Assembly: GCA_003154115.1 (NCBI GenBank)
Contig: PMCF01000240.1
Span: forward strand, 7,813 to 71,812
DNA length: 64,000 nucleotides
Direction of reading: 5' to 3'
From: Anaerolineae bacterium
Lineage (GTDB): Bacteria; Chloroflexota; Anaerolineae; Fen-1058
Shown: piece by piece, positions 9,201 through 46,515 of the stretch
Layout of the letters: every line of letters begins with the position of its first letter
Numbering within the stretch: position 1 is the first letter of the stretch
Position numbers and translations under genes: made by a program
The notes under the pieces: model-generated
What the model saw: the letters and a program-made list of their open reading frames with translations, nothing else
Told to the model about the DNA's origin: nothing
Databases searched by the model: none

Positions 9201-11434
9201 TCGACAATCCTCCGTTGCACGCGCCAGCCAGCAACGTTGTTGGCGGAAATGGAGTTTATCTCTATACGCCGACAGGCGGTTTCCCCAATCAAACTTACAA
9301 CGCAGGCAATTACTGGGTTGATGTTGTATTCCGTCCCAACCAGCCGCCCGTCGCCGCCGGTGATAGTGTCACCACCGACGAAGACACCGCGTTGAATATC
9401 ACCGCGCCAGGTGTGCTGGCGAATGACAGCGATCCCGATCTGGATCAACTTACAGCGCTACTGATCGGATCCCCGGCACACGGTCAGCTAACCTTAAACA
9501 GCGATGGCTCGTTCGTCTACACGCCGACACTCAACTTCAATGGTGTAGATTCTTTTGCCTATCAAGCCAGCGATGGGGCGTTGACGTCTAACACGGCCAG
9601 CGTAACGATTACGGTTAATCCCGTGAACGATCCGCCAGTGGCAAATAGCCAATCGGTAACCACCAATGCGAATTCGCCGGTAGCGATCACGCTCTCGGCC
9701 AGCGATGTCGATCTCGATCCGCTGACGTATAGCATCGTCGCGTCACCGGCCCATGGTTCCCTGTCTGGCGCCGCGCCCAATGTGACCTACACTCCCAGCG
9801 CCAACTACAGCGGAGCCGATAGTTTCACGTTCAAGGCCAATGACGGACAGGTCGATTCTAATGTCGCCACGGTATCCATCAACGTGAACGCCCCTGTGCC
9901 CACTTTGACGAGCATAAGCCCATCGGTTGGTACTGCGGGTGGCGTAACCTTCACGCTTGTCGTCACCGGCACGAACTTCGTGAGCGGATCAATTGTCCGC
10001 TGGAATGGCGCGAATCGCACCACGACTTTCGTCAGCAGCACGCGCCTGCAGGCCAGCATTCCCGCCACTGATCTCGCCGCGGCCGGCACGGCTAGTGTGA
10101 CGGTGTTCAACTCCACGCCGGGTGGCGGCACGTCAAGCGCCTTAACGTTCACGATCAATAATCCCGCGCCGACGATCAGCGCACTGGGACCGAGTACAGC
10201 CGTCGCAGGTGATCCGGCTCTGACCTTGATTGTCACCGGGACTAGCTTTGTAAGTGGTTCCATCGTGCGCTGGAACGGCGCGAATCGCACCACCACCTTC
10301 GTGAGCAGTACACGCTTAACGGCCAGCATTCTGGCGACAGATGTGTTGACGGCAGGAACTTACAGTGTGACGGTATTCAGTCCCGCGCCAGGCGGCGGCA
10401 CGTCAAGCGCCTTAACGTTCACGATCAATAATCCCGCGCCGACGATCAGCGCTATCGGGCCCAGCACCAGTATCGCTGGCAGCGCTGCCATCACCTTGAT
10501 CGTCACCGGCACCAACTTCGTGAGCGGATCAATTGTCCGCTGGAATGGCGCGAATCGCACCACCACCTTCGTGAGCAGCATACGTCTGACAGCCAGCGTC
10601 CCGGCCACCGATCTAGCAACCGCCGGCACGGCCAGTGTGACCGTGTTCAATCCAACACCTGGCGGCGGCACGTCGGGCACGTTGACCTTCACGATCAATA
10701 ACCCTGTTCCAACGATCAGCGCCCTAGGGCCGAGTACAGCCGTCGCAGGTGATCCGGCTCTGACCTTGATTGTCACCGGGACTAACTTTGTAAGTGGTTC
10801 CATCGTGCGCTGGAACGGCGCGAATCGCACGACCACCTTCGTCAACGGCACTCGCTTGACAGCGAGCATCCCGGCCATTGATCTCGCCACGGCGGGGAAC
10901 TTTAATGTGACGGTGTTTAATCCCACCCCTGGTGGTGGCACGTCGAGCTCACTGGCCTTCAATGTCGCGACCAACCGACTCGCTAATCCACGCTTTGAAC
11001 TCGATGCCAACGCCGATGGCCTACCGGACAGCTGGACCAGCGACAGCCGCTTCACGCGCAGTAGCACGGCGGTGCATGGCGGCAGCTTTGCCGGTCGCCA
11101 CTTTGCCGCCAACAACGCGACTTACACCATTCAACAGCTCGTGAGCGGCCTCAGTGCCGGCACCACCTATCAGTTCACTGGCTGGACTAACATCCCGCCG
11201 ACCAGCGACACGTTCACGTACCGCCTAACGATCATCTGGCGCAATACTGGGGGCAACACCTTGCGCACGGATGTTGTCAAGGCCTACACGGCAACGACAG
11301 GCGGCAGTTGGGATCAAGCCACCGCCAGTCTGGTTGCGCCAACGGGCACGGCCTCGGCCCTCGTGAACATGGAAGTGACGAGTCTCAACGCGACGATTTA
11401 CGCGGACGACTTTACGCTGCGCAGTGTGCCCTGA
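3296..11434 (+). CDS. Giant secreted multidomain protein: signal peptide, 5x DUF4082-like, 5x SbsA/Big_5 Ig-like, ThuA-like plus polysaccharide-deacetylase-like core, 2 cadherin-like/Tandem-95 units, 4x IPT/TIG, C-terminal CBM4/9-like domain
   Basis: ORF 3269-11434; best start ATG 3296 after aagaggagaa; repeated CPCxIW...[20 protein letters not shown], DTTPPTVxxxSPxxG, [27 protein letters not shown]. Confidence 0.85.
3430..9340 (+). repeat. Dispersed/tandem DUF4082+Ig-like coding repeats; CPC codons at 6371, 7202 and 8033 are exactly 831 bp apart
   Basis: Measured from sequence: tgcccctgccac 6371, tgtccgtgcaac 7202, tgcccttgcaat 8033, then tgcccgtgcagt 8852 (819 bp). Confidence 0.85.
9901..10960 (+). 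repeat. Four tandem IPT/TIG-coding units (about 270 bp) forming a 540-bp higher-order ABAB repeat
   Basis: Line 9961 vs 10501 nearly identical; line 10201 vs 10741 nearly identical; offset exactly 540. Confidence 0.9.
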
Positions 11435-29869: not shown

Positions 29870-30511
29870 ATGGATCAAAAGTTTTTTGCCCATCCCACCG
29901 CCGATGTTTCACCTCAAGCGGCGATCGGTGAAGGCACCAAAATCTGGCAGCACTGCCAGGTGCGCGAAGGTGTCGTGCTGGGTCGCAATTGCATCCTGAG
30001 CAAAGGCGTCTACATCGATTCTGATGTGCACATCGGCGACAATGTCAAAATTCAGAACGGCATTTCAGTCTATCATGGCGTCACACTGGAAGACGGCGTG
30101 TTTTGCGGACCGCACTGCGTCTTCACCAACGATCGTCAGCCGCGCGCCATCAACCCGGACGGCTCACTGAAAAGCGCCGACGATTGGGTGGTGAGCGAGA
30201 CGCTGGTGAGGACCGGCGCGTCGATCGGCGCGCATGCCACCATCGTGTGTGGTACCACGATCGGGCGCTGGGCCATGATCGGCGCAGGCGCGGTCGTCAC
30301 ACGCGATGTGCCCGATTACGGCCTGGTCTATGGCAATCCGGCGCGGCTGCACGGCTTTGTCTGCGCGTGCGGCGAGAAATTGCCTGTACCCGCTCAGACC
30401 CCATCCGATCCCGTCCCACCAAAAGATGGGGATTATTCCATGAAACTGACCTGCGCCAAATGCGGCGCACTGATCGACATTCCAGCGATCGTATTTGCTC
30501 AGCTGGTTTAA
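29870..30511 (+). CDS. Left-handed beta-helix acetyltransferase (WbpD/WlbB-like), C-terminal CxCG...CxxCG zinc-ribbon-like tail interrupted by a 27-bp repeat
   Basis: Hexapeptide repeats IGEGTKIWQHCQVREGVVLGRNCILSKGVYIDSDVHIGDNVKIQNG; tail VCACGEKL...TCAKCG. Confidence 0.85.
   Translation: MDQKFFAHPTADVSPQAAIGEGTKIWQHCQVREGVVLGRNCILSKGVYIDSDVHIGDNVKIQNGISVYHGVTLEDGVFCGPHCVFTNDRQPRAINPDGSLKSADDWVVSETLVRTGASIGAHATIVCGTTIGRWAMIGAGAVVTRDVPDYGLVYGNPARLHGFVCACGEKLPVPAQTPSDPVPPKDGDYSMKLTCAKCGALIDIPAIVFAQLV
30414..30442 (+). repeat. 27-bp start-junction repeat, copy 1 (inside the acetyltransferase CDS)
   Basis: tCCCACCAAAAGATGGGGATTATTCCATg; in-frame peptide PPKDGDYSM. Confidence 0.9.
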
Positions 30512-30529
30512 GCGCAAGTTCGAGCCATT

Positions 30530-30556
30530 CCCACCAAAAGATGGGGATTATCTCAT
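30530..30556 (+). repeat. 27-bp start-junction repeat, copy 2
   Basis: CCCACCAAAAGATGGGGATTATCTCAT, about 30 bp upstream of the aminotransferase ATG. Confidence 0.9.
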
Positions 30557-30586
30557 AAACTCGTATCCCATTTTTAAGGAGCTATC

Positions 30587-31657: not shown

Positions 31658-31686
31658 ATGGAAGAATCCCCGTCTATTGGTGGGAT
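31658..31686 (-). repeat. 27-bp start-junction repeat, copy 3, inverted
   Basis: Reverse complement ATCCCACCAATAGACGGGGATTCTTCCAT; lies between stop 31657 and ATG 31687. Confidence 0.85.
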
Positions 31687-32469: not shown

Positions 32470-32497
32470 TCCTACCAGTAGATGGGGATTATTTCAT
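32469..32497 (+). repeat. 27-bp start-junction repeat, copy 4 (diverged at the 5' end)
   Basis: ATCCTACCAGTAGATGGGGATTATTTCAT overlapping ATG 32496. Confidence 0.88.
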
Positions 32498-33812
32498 GCA
32501 ACCAGCCATTCGTTTTGATCACGTTTCTAAACGCTACCAGCTTGGCGAGCAGCGCCGCAGTCTGCGCGATGTTGCCTCGGGTCTGGGGCGGCGGTTGCGC
32601 GGTGGTCCGCGCGAAGACCCCAGCGCCAAGTTCTTGTGGGCTGTGCGCGATCTGAGTTTCGAAGTGAATCCCGGCGAGGTGCTGGGCATCATCGGGCCGA
32701 ACGGGTCCGGCAAGACCACGTCGCTGAAGCTGTTGTCGCGCATCACCTATCCCACCGAAGGCCGCGTCACCATTCAGGGCCGGGTGGCGTCGCTCATTGA
32801 GTTGGGGGCGGGCTTTCACGCCGAGCTCACCGGGCGCGAAAATGTCTACCTCAACGGCACAATCCTCGGGCTGAGCCGCAAAGAGATCGCGGCGCGCTTC
32901 GACGACATTGTCGGCTTTGCAGAACTGGAGAAGTTCATCGATACGCCCGTCAAGCGCTATTCGTCGGGCATGTACGCGCGACTGGGCTTCAGCGTAGCGG
33001 TTCACGTCAGCCCCGACGTGCTGCTGGTGGACGAGGTCCTGGCCGTGGGCGATCAGGCTTTTCAGAATCGCTGCTTCGAGCGGATGCGGCAGATGCGCTC
33101 TTCCGAGCGAGCGCTGGTATTCATCTCGCACAATATGTTTGCGGTGCGAGCACTGTGTACCAAGGTGCTGTTCCTGAAGAACGGAAAACCGATCGCGCAG
33201 GGGACACCTGACGAGGCGATTCGCGCCTATCAGAATTTTTCTGCACAGGAAGAAACTCACGCCGAGCAGACGCCCGACAGCACCCTGGCGCAAGAAGAAA
33301 AAATGGACAGCACACCCATCCGCATTACGGGCGCGGCTTTCCTGAACACCGCGCATCAGTCGGTGGAGGTGTTTGAGTTTGGCGCAAAGATGATCGTGCG
33401 GCTGCGTTATCGAGCGACGCAGCCCGTGGAGAATCCCACGTTTTCCTTCGTGTTCTTCCGGGGTGATGGCGCAGTGTGCGAAGGCTCTTCGACCATTCTG
33501 TGCGAGCGATCGGCGGGCCTGGTCACAGGCGACGGCTATGTGGAGTTTGAGATTCCGCAGCTGACGTTGATTCCCGGGATGTACACCATGGAAGTGGCCA
33601 TCACCAATCAGCACGTGGTAGTGTATGACTTCGATCACCGGCCTGAGCAGTTCATGGTGGAAAGCAAGAGGGCGCTGCACTTCCCGCGCTTCATAGCGAT
33701 GTATCCGGGCGAATGGCGCATCGTGCAGGGCAATGCCGAGCCGTTCGTGTTAGGCAATTTCGATACGCCCGTGGGGCCGCCCCAACCGATCGGGTTGGCT
33801 GACACCCGATGA
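32496..33812 (+). CDS. wzt: ABC exporter ATP-binding protein with C-terminal carbohydrate-binding domain (Wzt-like)
   Basis: Walker A GPNGSGKTTSLK, signature YSSGMYARLGF, Walker B VLLVDEVLAVGD; about 180-aa C-terminal Wzt_C-like extension. Confidence 0.9.
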   Translation: MQPAIRFDHVSKRYQLGEQRRSLRDVASGLGRRLRGGPREDPSAKFLWAVRDLSFEVNPGEVLGIIGPNGSGKTTSLKLLSRITYPTEGRVTIQGRVASLIELGAGFHAELTGRENVYLNGTILGLSRKEIAARFDDIVGFAELEKFIDTPVKRYSSGMYARLGFSVAVHVSPDVLLVDEVLAVGDQAFQNRCFERMRQMRSSERALVFISHNMFAVRALCTKVLFLKNGKPIAQGTPDEAIRAYQNFSAQEETHAEQTPDSTLAQEEKMDSTPIRITGAAFLNTAHQSVEVFEFGAKMIVRLRYRATQPVENPTFSFVFFRGDGAVCEGSSTILCERSAGLVTGDGYVEFEIPQLTLIPGMYTMEVAITNQHVVVYDFDHRPEQFMVESKRALHFPRFIAMYPGEWRIVQGNAEPFVLGNFDTPVGPPQPIGLADTR

Positions 33813-33858
33813 CTGTCTTGCAACGCACTCATTTGAGCACGTTTTTCCGAGAAGATCG

Positions 33859-33886
33859 ATCCCACCAAAAGATGGGATTATTTCAT
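33859..33886 (+). repeat. 27-bp start-junction repeat, copy 5 (tandem unit 1)
   Basis: ATCCCACCAAAAGATGGGATTATTTCAT (one G shorter). Confidence 0.92.
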
Positions 33887-33913
33887 CCCACCAAAAGATG
33901 GGGATTATTTCAT
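33887..33913 (+). repeat. 27-bp start-junction repeat, copy 6 (tandem unit 2)
   Basis: CCCACCAAAAGATGGGGATTATTTCAT. Confidence 0.95.
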
Positions 33914-33940
33914 CCCACCAAAAGATGGGGATTATTTCAT
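33914..33940 (+). repeat. 27-bp start-junction repeat, copy 7 (tandem unit 3)
   Basis: CCCACCAAAAGATGGGGATTATTTCAT overlapping ATG 33939. Confidence 0.95.
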
Positions 33941-35843
33941 GACTGACTCTGCTTCTTCCTCCAACTTAGCGACCACGCTGCACAAGATTCCGGGCTACCG
34001 GCCGGTGCGCTCGGCGATCTGGTATTTGACGCAATATCTGCGCAACTACGCAGCCTGGCCACCGCTGTATCTGTTGTGGGTCTTGCCACGCACGTTATAC
34101 CGGCTCCTGCGCGATGTCGTTTTTGTGAAAGATGATCCCGCTGATCCGATCATGGCTTATGCCTACAACACTGCATCCAACCTCACCTGGTATGCGCGCT
34201 TAGCGGCCGACATCCGTTACTTCGGGCCGAACGGCTATGCCTACAACGATGCCTTGGGGACGGCGGCGGGTGATCGGTTCTTTCAACACACGCTGTCATA
34301 CGGTTGGCTGTTTGGAAAACTTGGTCCGCGCCGCTATTCAATTTTATCCGGTGCGATCTGGCTGGCGTCGATTGTGTTGATGGGCGTCCTGACCGGGCAA
34401 GTCGGGTTAAGCCTGATCGTCGTGTTGTTGGCGGCAGCCTGTCCGGCCTTCGTCGTCTCACTGTGCCATGTCAACAAGCCCGAAATTTTAGGCTGGGCGT
34501 TTTTACCGATGGCGCTGTACTTCATCGCGCAGGGCAATGTGCTGTGGGCGGCCAGCATGTTGTTTGTGTTGTCGATCACCAGCATCACCATGGTCATTCC
34601 GGCGGCCGGCTTTGCGGGCCTGTTGTGGATCACGGGCTGGCTGCCGTTTTGGTCAATGGTGCTGATCGGGTTGCCGACGGCCATCAAGGTGGGCGTTCAA
34701 TTCTTGCGTTTCATGCTGCGCGTAGGGCTGCGGCAATACACCGAGGTCATCGGCGGCAGCGGCAAGAGCAAGACGCTCACTAATCCGCAGGTGATCAAAT
34801 ACATGCGCACCATCGTGCACGGGCAGAAGGCGTGGATGCTGTTGCACACACTGTCTGCGCTGGCGCTGTGGCTGGCCGGTGTGCCGTTTGGTTTTGCGCT
34901 GGCGTTGCTGACGCCCGTCATCGTTTTGTTCATCAACTATCGCGGGTTTCGCTGGGCCGATCAGCCCACGTTTGGCCGCCTGTTTGTGGCCTTTGGCGCG
35001 CCGTATGTGCTGCTGTTTCCCGGTTGGGTCAGCCTCATCGGCTTCATCATCGTCTTCTTAGCTGTGCATCCGCGCATGGCGGTCGAAGCGGGCGGCATCG
35101 ATATGTCGCACTTGATCGGCGGCGACCGTCTGTCCAACTATCCTTACACCACGCCCATTCACCTGGGGAAGCCCACCGCCGATCGGGTGCGGCAGTTCTT
35201 CTCGACCGTAGCGAACGGCGAGCGTGTGGCCTGGGAAGCAGCCGATCCTTTCAGCGCTTCACTGGGCGGTTATCGCCATGTCAGTTTTTTCCTGGAATGG
35301 GCGGTCAACGATCGGCACATCGAGATCATCCCGGGCGAATGGCTGCGCGCCACGCAGACCGACTGGTATCTCGATCGCTGGTCAAAAATCAACGACGACA
35401 TCGCTCCGGCCGAATGCGTCGAGGCGTGCCGCGAGGGCGGCGTGCAATATCTGTTGACCAGTCTGCCCGGTCTCACTCAGAATTTGATCGCGGGCGGCTT
35501 CCAGTTGATCGATCAACTCAGCGCGGACACGCTGCGCCAATCCTGTCTGGGCAGCCTCATGACGCCCGATCGGACCCTGCATCTTTTGAGAGTCCCAGAG
35601 CCGATCAGTCTGCTGGACCCCGGCGCCAACCCGGCGCGTCAGGCCAACCAGCTGACATTTGAAGGCCGCGCCAACACGCCCTATTTCCTCAAGTACAATT
35701 TTCATCCGGGCTGGTCGGGTGCTGTCAGCGGGCAACCACTTAAAATCGTTAAGAGCCGCCGGGGCGCATTGACCGGCATGGAAATCACCACGCCGGTTGA
35801 CGGCACGGTTATGCTGCGCTTTCACGGCGGGGGCTTGTTGTAA
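33939..35843 (+). CDS. Polytopic membrane protein of unknown function (possible GT-C-like glycosyltransferase)
   Basis: 634 aa with many TM segments plus a soluble C-terminal region; no family confidently recognised. Confidence 0.6.
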   Translation: MTDSASSSNLATTLHKIPGYRPVRSAIWYLTQYLRNYAAWPPLYLLWVLPRTLYRLLRDVVFVKDDPADPIMAYAYNTASNLTWYARLAADIRYFGPNGYAYNDALGTAAGDRFFQHTLSYGWLFGKLGPRRYSILSGAIWLASIVLMGVLTGQVGLSLIVVLLAAACPAFVVSLCHVNKPEILGWAFLPMALYFIAQGNVLWAASMLFVLSITSITMVIPAAGFAGLLWITGWLPFWSMVLIGLPTAIKVGVQFLRFMLRVGLRQYTEVIGGSGKSKTLTNPQVIKYMRTIVHGQKAWMLLHTLSALALWLAGVPFGFALALLTPVIVLFINYRGFRWADQPTFGRLFVAFGAPYVLLFPGWVSLIGFIIVFLAVHPRMAVEAGGIDMSHLIGGDRLSNYPYTTPIHLGKPTADRVRQFFSTVANGERVAWEAADPFSASLGGYRHVSFFLEWAVNDRHIEIIPGEWLRATQTDWYLDRWSKINDDIAPAECVEACREGGVQYLLTSLPGLTQNLIAGGFQLIDQLSADTLRQSCLGSLMTPDRTLHLLRVPEPISLLDPGANPARQANQLTFEGRANTPYFLKYNFHPGWSGAVSGQPLKIVKSRRGALTGMEITTPVDGTVMLRFHGGGLL

Positions 35844-43859: not shown

Positions 43860-45085
43860 TGCGCATCCTTTATCTTTCACCCTGGTTTCCTTATCCGTTG
43901 GATACCGGCTTTCGCATCCGGGTCTATCACATGCTGTCGGTCCTGGCGCAGCAGCATCGCGTGACGCTGCTGACGCTCGATCCGCAGGGTTGGGCGCCGG
44001 CACAGATCGAGCCGGTGAAGCCGCTGTGCGAGCACGTTGAGATTGTAGAGGCCGATCCGTTCAATCGGCCCAGGGCGCAACAGGCCACGCGCTTTTTGTC
44101 CTTCGGCCCGATCGTGGCGGCGCCCTTTGCCGAGATGAGCGCGCGGGTGCAACAACTCCACCGGCAGCAACCCTTCGACGTGGTCATTGCATCCAGCGTG
44201 ATGATGGCGGCCTATACGTTGGATTTGCCCCAGGTGACGCGCATCCTGGAAGAGCACAATTCCAATACCCGCTGGATGTACGATCGTTATCGGGCGCAGA
44301 GAACTGCCATGCAAAAATTGCGCTGTTGGGCCAGCTGGCGCAAATCGGCTCTGTACGAGGCCCGCCTGTTCCCGCACTTCGATCTGGTGACGATGGTGTC
44401 CGAGCAAGACGCGGCGGCCACGCGTAAACTGTTACACGGCAAGTCGCGCGTGGAAGTCTCACCGAATGGCGTCGATGCCGCACACTTCATCCCCGGTCTG
44501 GCCGAACCACAACCGGACACCTTGATCTTTGGCGGCGCGTTGACGTATGAAGCAAATTTTGAGGCGATGCACTATTTTCTGAAAGACGTGTATCCACTCA
44601 TCAAGCAACAGCGGCCCGACGTCACACTGCGCATCACGGGCTCAACCGGCAAAGCGCACCTGAGCGGACTGGCGCTGGACAAGAGCGTCATCCTGACCGG
44701 CTTCGTCGACGATGTGCGCCCAGTGGTGGCCGGCGCGTGGGTGTCCATCGCGCCGATTTTATCTGGCGGCGGCACCCGCCTGAAGATTCTGGAGTCGATG
44801 GCGCTAGGCACACCCGTGGTGTCCACCTCGAAAGGCGCGGAAGGTATCGAGGTGACGGACGGACAACATTTGCTCATCGCGGACGATGCCGCATCATTTG
44901 CGCGGCGCGTGGTCGAGTTGTTAGCCGATCGGGCGCTGCGAGAACGATTGACCCACACCGCACGGCATCTGGTGGTCAGCCAGTATGATTGGACGGCCAT
45001 TGCCCAGCGTTTTCTAAGCTGGATGGAGCAGGTAAAAGCGCAGGGAGCAAAGCCGTCCCACCAAAAGATGGGGATTATTCCATGA
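43859..45085 (+). CDS. GT4 family glycosyltransferase (TIGR03087-type sugar transferase-like); last 10 residues encoded by the 27-bp repeat
   Basis: MRILYLSPWFPYPLDTGFRIRVYHMLSVLAQQHRVTLLTLD; GGGTRLKILESMALGTPVVSTSKGAEGI; C-terminus SHQKMGIIP*. Confidence 0.87.
   Translation: MRILYLSPWFPYPLDTGFRIRVYHMLSVLAQQHRVTLLTLDPQGWAPAQIEPVKPLCEHVEIVEADPFNRPRAQQATRFLSFGPIVAAPFAEMSARVQQLHRQQPFDVVIASSVMMAAYTLDLPQVTRILEEHNSNTRWMYDRYRAQRTAMQKLRCWASWRKSALYEARLFPHFDLVTMVSEQDAAATRKLLHGKSRVEVSPNGVDAAHFIPGLAEPQPDTLIFGGALTYEANFEAMHYFLKDVYPLIKQQRPDVTLRITGSTGKAHLSGLALDKSVILTGFVDDVRPVVAGAWVSIAPILSGGGTRLKILESMALGTPVVSTSKGAEGIEVTDGQHLLIADDAASFARRVVELLADRALRERLTHTARHLVVSQYDWTAIAQRFLSWMEQVKAQGAKPSHQKMGIIP
45057..45083 (+). 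repeat. 27-bp start-junction repeat, copy 8
   Basis: CCCACCAAAAGATGGGGATTATTCCAT; creates the ATGA stop/start junction of the GT4 and O-antigen ligase genes. Confidence 0.93.
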
Positions 45086-46515
45086 TCACTCATTCCGTGC
45101 AGCGCGTCTTTGAAGATAAACGCTGGCGCACGGCGTTGATCATTCTTGGCGTGCTGGTGGTGGCGTTTGCATTGGGCCATCGTCCGTCACCGCTGTACCT
45201 GGCGTTGCCGGTGGCGCTGGCAGGCGCCTTGATCTTGCTGCGCTATCCAATCCTGGGACTGCCTCTTATGATCGTCGCAGCCCTGCTCGTCCCCATCGAG
45301 CTGAGCACCGGCACGGACGTGTCGCTGAATCCGGTGGCACTGCTGGTTCCAGTGCTGTTTGGCATTTGGGTGCTGACGCGCATGCACCATCAGGATTTGC
45401 GCCTGGCGCCATCCCTCACGACCAAACCGTTAATCTTTTTCCTGCTATCAGCCTTACTATCGTTCTTTATCGGTACACTCATTTGGGATCCGAATGTGCC
45501 TAAATCCGATCGCTTCCCGATCGTGCAAATGGCGCAGTGGGCGTTGTTCGTTTTTTCGGCGCTCGCTTTCTGGCTGGTCGGTAATCTGATCAAAAGCGAG
45601 CTCAATCTGAAACGACTGACGGCTTTCTTCTTGATCGTCGCAGGAACATTATCGATCTTGCGAATGGTACCGCCTATCTGGAACATGGTGGAACACTTCA
45701 CGACCTTTGCGTTGCTGCGGGCCCCTTTCTGGATGGCACTGGTGGCTTTAGCGCTGGGTCAATTGATTTTCAATACCGCACTCTCGCGCCGCTGGCAAAT
45801 TTTCCTGGCGCTGGCCGTCGTCGGGGTGTTTATCTATTCGTTCGTGGGCCAAGCTGAACGCACCTCCAATTGGGTGTCTGTCGGCGTAATTGTCTACACG
45901 CTGGCCTGGCTGCGCTTCCCGCGATTCCGCACGTTGTTTATCGTCGCGGCGATTCTGGGAGCAACCGTGTTTTTCCCCATCATCTATCAATTTGGTGGTG
46001 GCGATGCGAAATGGGATGAAAGTGGAGCATCTCGATTGGTGCTCAGTGGCCGCGTGATGGAAGTCTCCCTGCGGAATCCCATCACGGGTCTTGGCCCGGC
46101 AGCTTATCGGCCCTATGCCAATACCCGGCCACTGCAATATGGGTTGGCTTATTGGATTAATCCGCAAATCAATTCACACAACAACTACGTGGATCTATTC
46201 TCGCAGACCGGCATCGTCGGTTTGATTTTTTACTTCTGGTTCATCGTTTCCCTGTTCCGGGTGGGATTCCGCTTGCGCAAGACTTATCGCACCGGCTTTG
46301 CGGCGGGCTACGTCAACGCGATGGTTGCCGCATTGGCAGGAGTATGCGTGGTCATGCTCCTGCTCGACTGGTTTCTGCCCTTTGTCTATAATGTCGGCTT
46401 TCCGGGCTTTCAGGCCAGTGTGTTGTTGTGGATGTTTCTGGGCGGATTAGTGTCGCTGGAAAATATTGCCCGGCAGAGAAATTCAGCAAAGGTGGATGCT
46501 TCGCATGTCGCCTGA
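45082..46515 (+). CDS. O-antigen ligase/polymerase-like membrane protein
   Basis: Start refined to MITHSVQ at 45082; about 10 TM segments; NSHNNYVDLFSQTGIVGLIFYFWFI. Confidence 0.82.
   Translation: MITHSVQRVFEDKRWRTALIILGVLVVAFALGHRPSPLYLALPVALAGALILLRYPILGLPLMIVAALLVPIELSTGTDVSLNPVALLVPVLFGIWVLTRMHHQDLRLAPSLTTKPLIFFLLSALLSFFIGTLIWDPNVPKSDRFPIVQMAQWALFVFSALAFWLVGNLIKSELNLKRLTAFFLIVAGTLSILRMVPPIWNMVEHFTTFALLRAPFWMALVALALGQLIFNTALSRRWQIFLALAVVGVFIYSFVGQAERTSNWVSVGVIVYTLAWLRFPRFRTLFIVAAILGATVFFPIIYQFGGGDAKWDESGASRLVLSGRVMEVSLRNPITGLGPAAYRPYANTRPLQYGLAYWINPQINSHNNYVDLFSQTGIVGLIFYFWFIVSLFRVGFRLRKTYRTGFAAGYVNAMVAALAGVCVVMLLLDWFLPFVYNVGFPGFQASVLLWMFLGGLVSLENIARQRNSAKVDASHVA

Follow-up and report, generated by a model that had tools for sequence, protein, structure and literature searches.

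The window analysed here, a 64,000-nucleotide stretch of contig PMCF01000240.1 from the genome of an Anaerolineae bacterium, contains three head-to-tail copies of a short repeat (positions 33859-33940) that end in the start codon of a gene for a predicted membrane protein. Most probably this repeat is a dispersed, non-autonomous mobile element, specific to one bacterial family, that inserts directly 3' of the motif YNRT, often inside start codons, and forms arrays by re-insertion and duplication. A narrower proposition, for which the case is about evenly balanced, is that the element family prefers the start codon itself as integration site (YNRT^G, the caret marking the point of insertion), cutting between AT and G, rebuilding the codon with its own terminal AT, replacing the leader, and allowing further copies to be added at the same point.

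The element family and its placement at start codons

In the correct register the unit of the array reads CCCACCAAAAGATGGGGATTATTTCAT, and the 27-bp short form of the element has the organisation CCCACC-N7-GGGGAYTRTYYC-RT with the family consensus CCCACCNNNNRAYGGGGAYTRTYYCRT. A chance origin is excluded, since the 21-mer core has seven matches in the window versus 0.00 expected, and the 27-mer at up to three mismatches occurs 30 times in the genome versus 0 for a reversed control. Apart from the shortened copy with which the array begins, the unit occurs seven times between 30.4 and 45.1 kb of the window. In the whole genome (7.7 Mb in 460 contigs) 51 copies were found at one mismatch to the consensus, and a sequence model returned 88 matches at E<=0.5, many of them partial. 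In the four remaining genomes of this family and order 7, 10, 11 and 1 copies were found (29 in total); 55 further genomes of the class have none, and the reversed control gave zero. These are draft genomes, with one genome per species. Among the class genomes searched the element is confined to one family of the Thermoflexales, a group of the Chloroflexota. A match in an Erysipelothrix metagenome-assembled genome (L094) comprised one 20-mer without the unit and was taken as chance.

The flanks of the element are strongly biased. Among 67 left flanks in the family, T occupies position -1 in 94%, R position -2 in 90% and Y position -4 in 91%, which gives the motif YNRT, and the left dinucleotide is AT in 43 and GT in 13. 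G follows the 3' end in 39 of 65 cases in the family and in 34 of the 52 terminal copies in the regions covered in this genome. Gene context was counted in approximately 0.5 Mb of regions around copies, using a home-made simple gene caller; the null for start codons was computed on the same regions, and the sample is biased to the surroundings of copies. In 19 of the 34 G-followed copies (56%) the RTG serves as start of a called gene, either exactly as called (13) or in frame within 150 nucleotides upstream (6), as compared with 8.3% starts for RTG preceded by an intergenic base (P=1.6e-12) and 9.4% for intergenic YNRTG (P=1.3e-11). Roughly half of the copies are not at starts, and some of these are reversed or located in open reading frames (ORFs). 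The bias could reflect targeting, selection or both, which the data do not separate. Random insertion at RT sites, with start codons being the places where selection leaves copies unharmed, is a tentative alternative with an appreciable minority share of the probability: the make-up of a 27-bp insert that restores RTG keeps the damage small, and copies survive in intergenic gaps too. Yet intergenic YNRTG sites that are not starts should be at least as safe, which does not account for starts holding 56% of the RT^G copies where 9.4% is expected. A literature search found no report of insertion inside start codons.

Empty sites, element ends and growth of arrays

Occupied and empty versions of the same start codon were identified by searching a fused query of 18 N-termini in the four relatives and comparing the start regions; genes were named by recognition of the N-terminus, and only some were run against Pfam. 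For 15 element-bearing genes at least one relative lacks the element at the same start codon. These comprise rpsJ, truA, glmS, tkt, sdhB, nuoM and selB, as well as phosphoglycerate-mutase-like, DUF4139-like and MobA-like genes and the genes designated L059a, L059b, L111, L056 and L051. The clearest empty site reads ...GTCG-ATG-AGC-CTG-CAA in one relative (G001) versus ...ACCG-AT-element-G-AGC-CTG-CAA in the present genome (G000), and at nuoM both of the versions compared retain the sequence GAGGTAACT. The starts of rpsJ, truA, nuoM and selB are also occupied in a genome of the same genus; nuoM and selB carry the long form of the element alone in the present genome and the long plus the short form in its congener, which shows that species differ in the number of copies at a start codon. 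At L111, the relative G004 has an empty ATGA stop/start overlap that is occupied in G002 and G000, where the upstream protein is nine residues longer and ATGA is kept. When the element was removed from 18 sites, Shine-Dalgarno pairing of the reconstructed 5' ends averaged -3.9 kcal/mol versus -2.7 for shuffles, as expected if the sequence to the left of the element is the original leader.

These empty sites disfavour a reading that we consider improbable, in which the motif is a conserved control element of translation or transcription (a shared leader to which a regulator, an sRNA or the ribosome binds) that arose at the starts of a regulon and whose tandem copies tune expression. It would fit the 19 of 34 CAT^G copies that lie exactly at start codons in gene orientation, as well as the properties of the leader: the last GGGG stands at the canonical distance from AUG, its anti-Shine-Dalgarno pairing of -5.5 kcal/mol equals the median for called genes (-5.5), and it is predicted to be mostly paired, with 4-14% unpaired for one to five copies. 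However, the genes concerned have no common function (rpsJ, truA, glmS, transketolase, sdhB, nuoM, selB, Wzt, O-antigen ligase), orthologues within the same family do without the element, and roughly every second copy is found elsewhere than at a start. Moreover, folding of the whole leader at the array is no better than that of shuffled sequence (z=0.11). A riboswitch or other known RNA was rejected, as five loci holding long forms gave no Rfam match up to E=1. The predicted state of the AUG changes little with copy number (0.63-0.72 unpaired); since predicted pairing hides the last GGGG, the array may have an effect on translation.

The ends of the element argue for insertion without target duplication, because in single copies the left dinucleotide and the element's own terminal dinucleotide vary independently (AT/AT 29, GT/AT 11, AT/GT 4, GT/GT 2). 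In addition, positions 19 and 26 covary with no exception (T/A 68, C/G 16), which 0 of 500 shuffles reproduced. A classical miniature inverted-repeat transposable element, moved by a DDE transposase, bounded by terminal inverted repeats and duplicating a 2-bp AT target, is about as unlikely as the control element. AT does occur on both sides in 29 of 53 single copies, and the ends are partly complementary (ATCCC...GGGAT); against this stand the uncoupled left and right dinucleotides, the perfect covariation of the right R with position 19 inside the element, and the fact that the element does not end in its complementary part and has no full inverted repeat.

Tandem pairs in the family (n=12) differ by 2-8 bases in seven cases and are identical in five, which indicates that many arrays grew by separate insertions rather than by slippage. 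The identical pairs, a group to which the array in the window belongs, reflect local duplication or repeated use of one source, and slippage may still act on this array after insertion. Least likely of all is the view that the array is a local minisatellite made by replication slippage whose variable copy number phase-tunes the membrane protein, as proposed by the sequence-only reading: units 2 and 3 are indeed identical with unit 1 one G short, and the five identical family pairs agree with it, but the unit occurs singly at dozens of unrelated loci and most tandem pairs differ.

The course of events proposed for the mobile element is as follows. Insertion would take place directly 3' of YNRT and would most often separate RT from G in an ATG or GTG start. 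Since the 3' end of the element is YYCRT, a start codon would reappear at the junction RT^G, with the element now supplying its leader (GGGGAUUAUUUC-AUG). The element could also sit in stop/start overlaps or inside ORFs with neither gene broken, which would be tolerated because 27 bp keeps the frame and brings no forward stop. The rebuilt YCAT^G would be a new target, and repeated insertion together with local duplication would lead to tandem arrays.

At the array itself, Tandem Repeats Finder reported positions 33859-33940 with a period of 27, 3.1 copies and 98% match, and no second array of this kind in the window. The layout is AT + 26 + 27 + 27 bases (Table 1). The sequence-only reading had rightly placed a tandem array, without spacer, before the ATG at 33939, and had rightly noted that one unit differs by the loss of a single base, which is the fourth G of unit 1. 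Its description of the array as perfect holds for units 2 and 3, not for unit 1, and its unit sizes of 28/27/27 are corrected to 26/27/27, the separate AT at 33859-33860 having been counted into unit 1. Likewise, each unit was said to contain its own GGGGATTATTTCAT, which is true of units 2 and 3 and inexact in unit 1, where the fourth G is missing; that upstream units end in CATCC and CATG is formed by the last unit alone was borne out. A change of frame by slippage is excluded, because the array precedes the start codon and can alter the length or structure of the leader only. The repeats had been interpreted as a start module; a repeated module is indeed joined to the ATG, while its nature as a dispersed inserted element that rebuilds a split start codon was overlooked. 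The AT at 33859..33860 closes the putative target CGAT, which fits YNRT. Removal of the array in silico yields GAGAAG-ATCG-ATG-ACT, in which GAGAAG, 4 nucleotides upstream of the left AT, forms a weak duplex with ACCUCCUUU (-3.0 kcal/mol).

Table 1. Features of the window associated with the element (positions in the 64,000-nucleotide stretch)
Feature	Position	Strand	Basis or remark
Copy in hexapeptide acetyltransferase ORF 29870-30511, 27 bp	30415..30441	+	nine residues added in frame; empty site CCC GTG AAA
Copy in intergenic gap 30512-30586, 27 bp	30530..30556	+	away from start codon
Reverse copy between stop 31657 and ATG 31687, 27 bp	31658..31684	-	nearly fills the 29-bp gap
Copy splitting start codon of Wzt-like ABC ATPase gene (32496-33812), 27 bp	32471..32497	+	
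GAGAAG, candidate original Shine-Dalgarno sequence of the 33939 gene	33849..33854	+	inferred from sequence and reconstructed empty site
AT left flank, putative first two bases of original split start codon	33859..33860	+	family flanks; empty sites in relatives
Array copy 1, 26 nucleotides, one G lost (TGGGATT)	33861..33886	+	model match, 24.1 bits
Array copy 2, 27 nucleotides	33887..33913	+	sequence model, 34.3 bits
Array copy 3, 27 nucleotides; last AT + G33941 = start codon	33914..33940	+	sequence searches, sequence model
Predicted membrane protein, 634 aa, in polysaccharide cluster	33939..35843	+	start = element AT + G
Copy in GTGA stop/start overlap before O-antigen ligase gene (45082-46515), 27 bp	45057..45083	+	

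Proposed mobilisation and relation to known systems

Directly shown are the element family with its flanks, the empty sites, the covariation and the location at start codons. What we infer is any effect on translation, and movement through single-stranded DNA, for which a Y1 transposase of the IS200/IS605-like type would act in trans. Like members of the IS200/IS605 family, the element inserts 3' of a short motif (here YNRT) without target-site duplication, favours a particular next base and has an end motif similar to its target; an internal base of the element covaries with the terminal motif, where IS200/IS605 elements have pairing. IS608 inserts 3' of TTAC, its cleavage sites being read by pairing with guide bases, and ISDra2 prefers TTGAT^G (PMC5934647). 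Subterminal hairpins are a feature of that family; in the element the hairpin of the 66-bp form and the Y19-R26 pair covary, and pairing with the left target was not seen. In contrast to IS200/IS605 elements, the repeat is far smaller, has a looser target (YNRT), and no tnpA or tnpB with its ends was found. The similarity is regarded as a working resemblance and not as membership, which is withheld because no transposase bears the element ends and the Y1 genes are not associated with it.

Several results weigh against the proposed mobile element and its targeting of start codons. No following G is present in 18 of the 52 terminal copies, and part of the start-codon bias could stem from selection. 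The relatives yielded no orthologue of the 33939 gene, and its empty site is therefore a reconstruction. No autonomous element with the same ends was found in these genomes, which is weak evidence because they are drafts. Genes with a Y1_Tnp domain occur in G000 (5), G001 (1), G002 (2) and G003 (1), none of them flanked by the element, and no single Y1_Tnp type is common to all genomes; TnpB (PF07282) is absent from G000-G003, and six viral records with element copies carry no Y1_Tnp. Searches with the ends TCCCACCACGCC and GGGGAYTRTYYCRT returned only the short, long and nested forms and chance matches. Separately, RAYT-like genes at L130 and L131 are flanked by other hairpin repeats (CCTTGCGAGGG..CCCTCGCAAGG; GCGGATATACCATCCGC), which are probably the REP-like families of those genes.

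MIRUs (mycobacterial interspersed repetitive units) have been proposed to enter stop/start overlaps, and the element resembles them and ETR-F in being a short dispersed repeat at gene junctions, single or tandem, with variable copy number. MIRUs measure 40-100 bp and belong to another phylum; the 27-bp form of the element falls outside and the 66-bp form inside this range, the comparison covering size and placement. What distinguishes the element from a MIRU is that, at many loci, it breaks RT^G open and restores the codon from its own end, next to YNRT left flanks. The nearest precedent is ETR-F (VNTR3239) of Mycobacterium tuberculosis, a tandem array whose end lies at the fpg1 start codon and which other mycobacteria lack (PMC2734929). 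REP sequences are small, dispersed palindromic repeats restricted to related genomes and thought to be mobilised in trans by Y1 enzymes (PMC3733652, PMC8266576). The element is likewise small, dispersed and confined to related genomes; unlike REPs its consensus has neither a GTAG nor a CGTC tag, and in contrast to the REP/RAYT system no Y1_Tnp locus (five in G000, four in relatives) is flanked by it. Furthermore, REPs lie mostly downstream of genes (PMC3733652), whereas the element is often at gene starts. Rickettsia palindromic elements are small repeats inserted in frame into protein-coding sequence (PMC10969869), comparable to the copies at 30415 and 45057, but they are approximately 150 bp long and occupy ORF interiors, not start codons. 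What appears to be new is repeated, precise entry into the start codon with self-repair. If true, this would be a simple natural route by which a parasite sequence reaches essential genes (rpsJ, glmS, nuoM) and the host survives; it would also generate new leaders and copy-number variation right at start codons. It also bears on the site choice of small non-autonomous repeats such as MIRU and REP, for which empty and filled sites in related genomes offer a means of testing.

Longer forms, further copies and side observations

The long form, mostly 66 bp, shares both ends with the short form and contains an internal hairpin (CCCACCACGCC...GGCCCA-CCCCGCC-ACA-GGCGGGG-GAA-TGGGC...GGGGATTATTTCAT). 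All stem positions pair (100%) in each of nine distinct sequences, and four pairs of the main helix carry changes in both partners; the 66-bp hairpin gave 13 double-change cells, a number reached by 0 of 500 shuffles. The short form corresponds to nine codons without a stop in any forward frame and the 66-bp form to 22 codons, most long copies being free of a forward stop, as would suit an insert tolerated in translated sequence. There is also a third length class, approximately 48 bp and likewise a multiple of three (CCCACCAAAGTCCGGGGACT-CCCAAAAAGATGGGACTTCGT-ATTTCGT), observed at L241:920-1045 (minus strand) and, in L076 and L083, just upstream of the matched unit. A different small repeat, which has the ends TACTCAGCC...GGCTGAGTA and contains TCATTCCCGCCTTCGCGGGAATCC, is apparently inserted within copies of the element at L049:11050-11240 and L063:5292-5441.

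The 33939 gene is accompanied by genes for a Wzt-like ABC ATPase, an ABC-2 permease, an aminotransferase and the O-antigen ligase, and its 634-aa product has no Pfam match. The empty site of the 32471 copy is ATC TGATG CAA, a stop/start overlap. The copy at 45057 turned the former GTG start of the O-antigen ligase gene into ATG and extends the upstream glycosyltransferase from AKP-TGA to AKPSHQKMGIIP-TGA. In the reversed copy at 31658-31684, GGTGGG may serve as ribosome binding site for the next gene.

Copies of the element are also present in IMG/VR contigs classed as viral (L256, L257, L258, L259, L260, L261, L262 and L263), and phages may carry the element between hosts. One viral record of 86.7 kb (L257 and L259) has several copies beside HNH, DnaC-like and methyltransferase genes, plus a 72-bp form, and a copy lies at a gene start in L256, L258 and L262. 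At L059:2514-3384 a copy occupies the start codon of a Pvc16_N-domain gene, which suggests a cluster for an extracellular contractile injection system. Finally, positions 9962-10948 of the window hold a tandem repeat of 270-bp units (3.7 copies) that apparently encodes a repeated protein domain.
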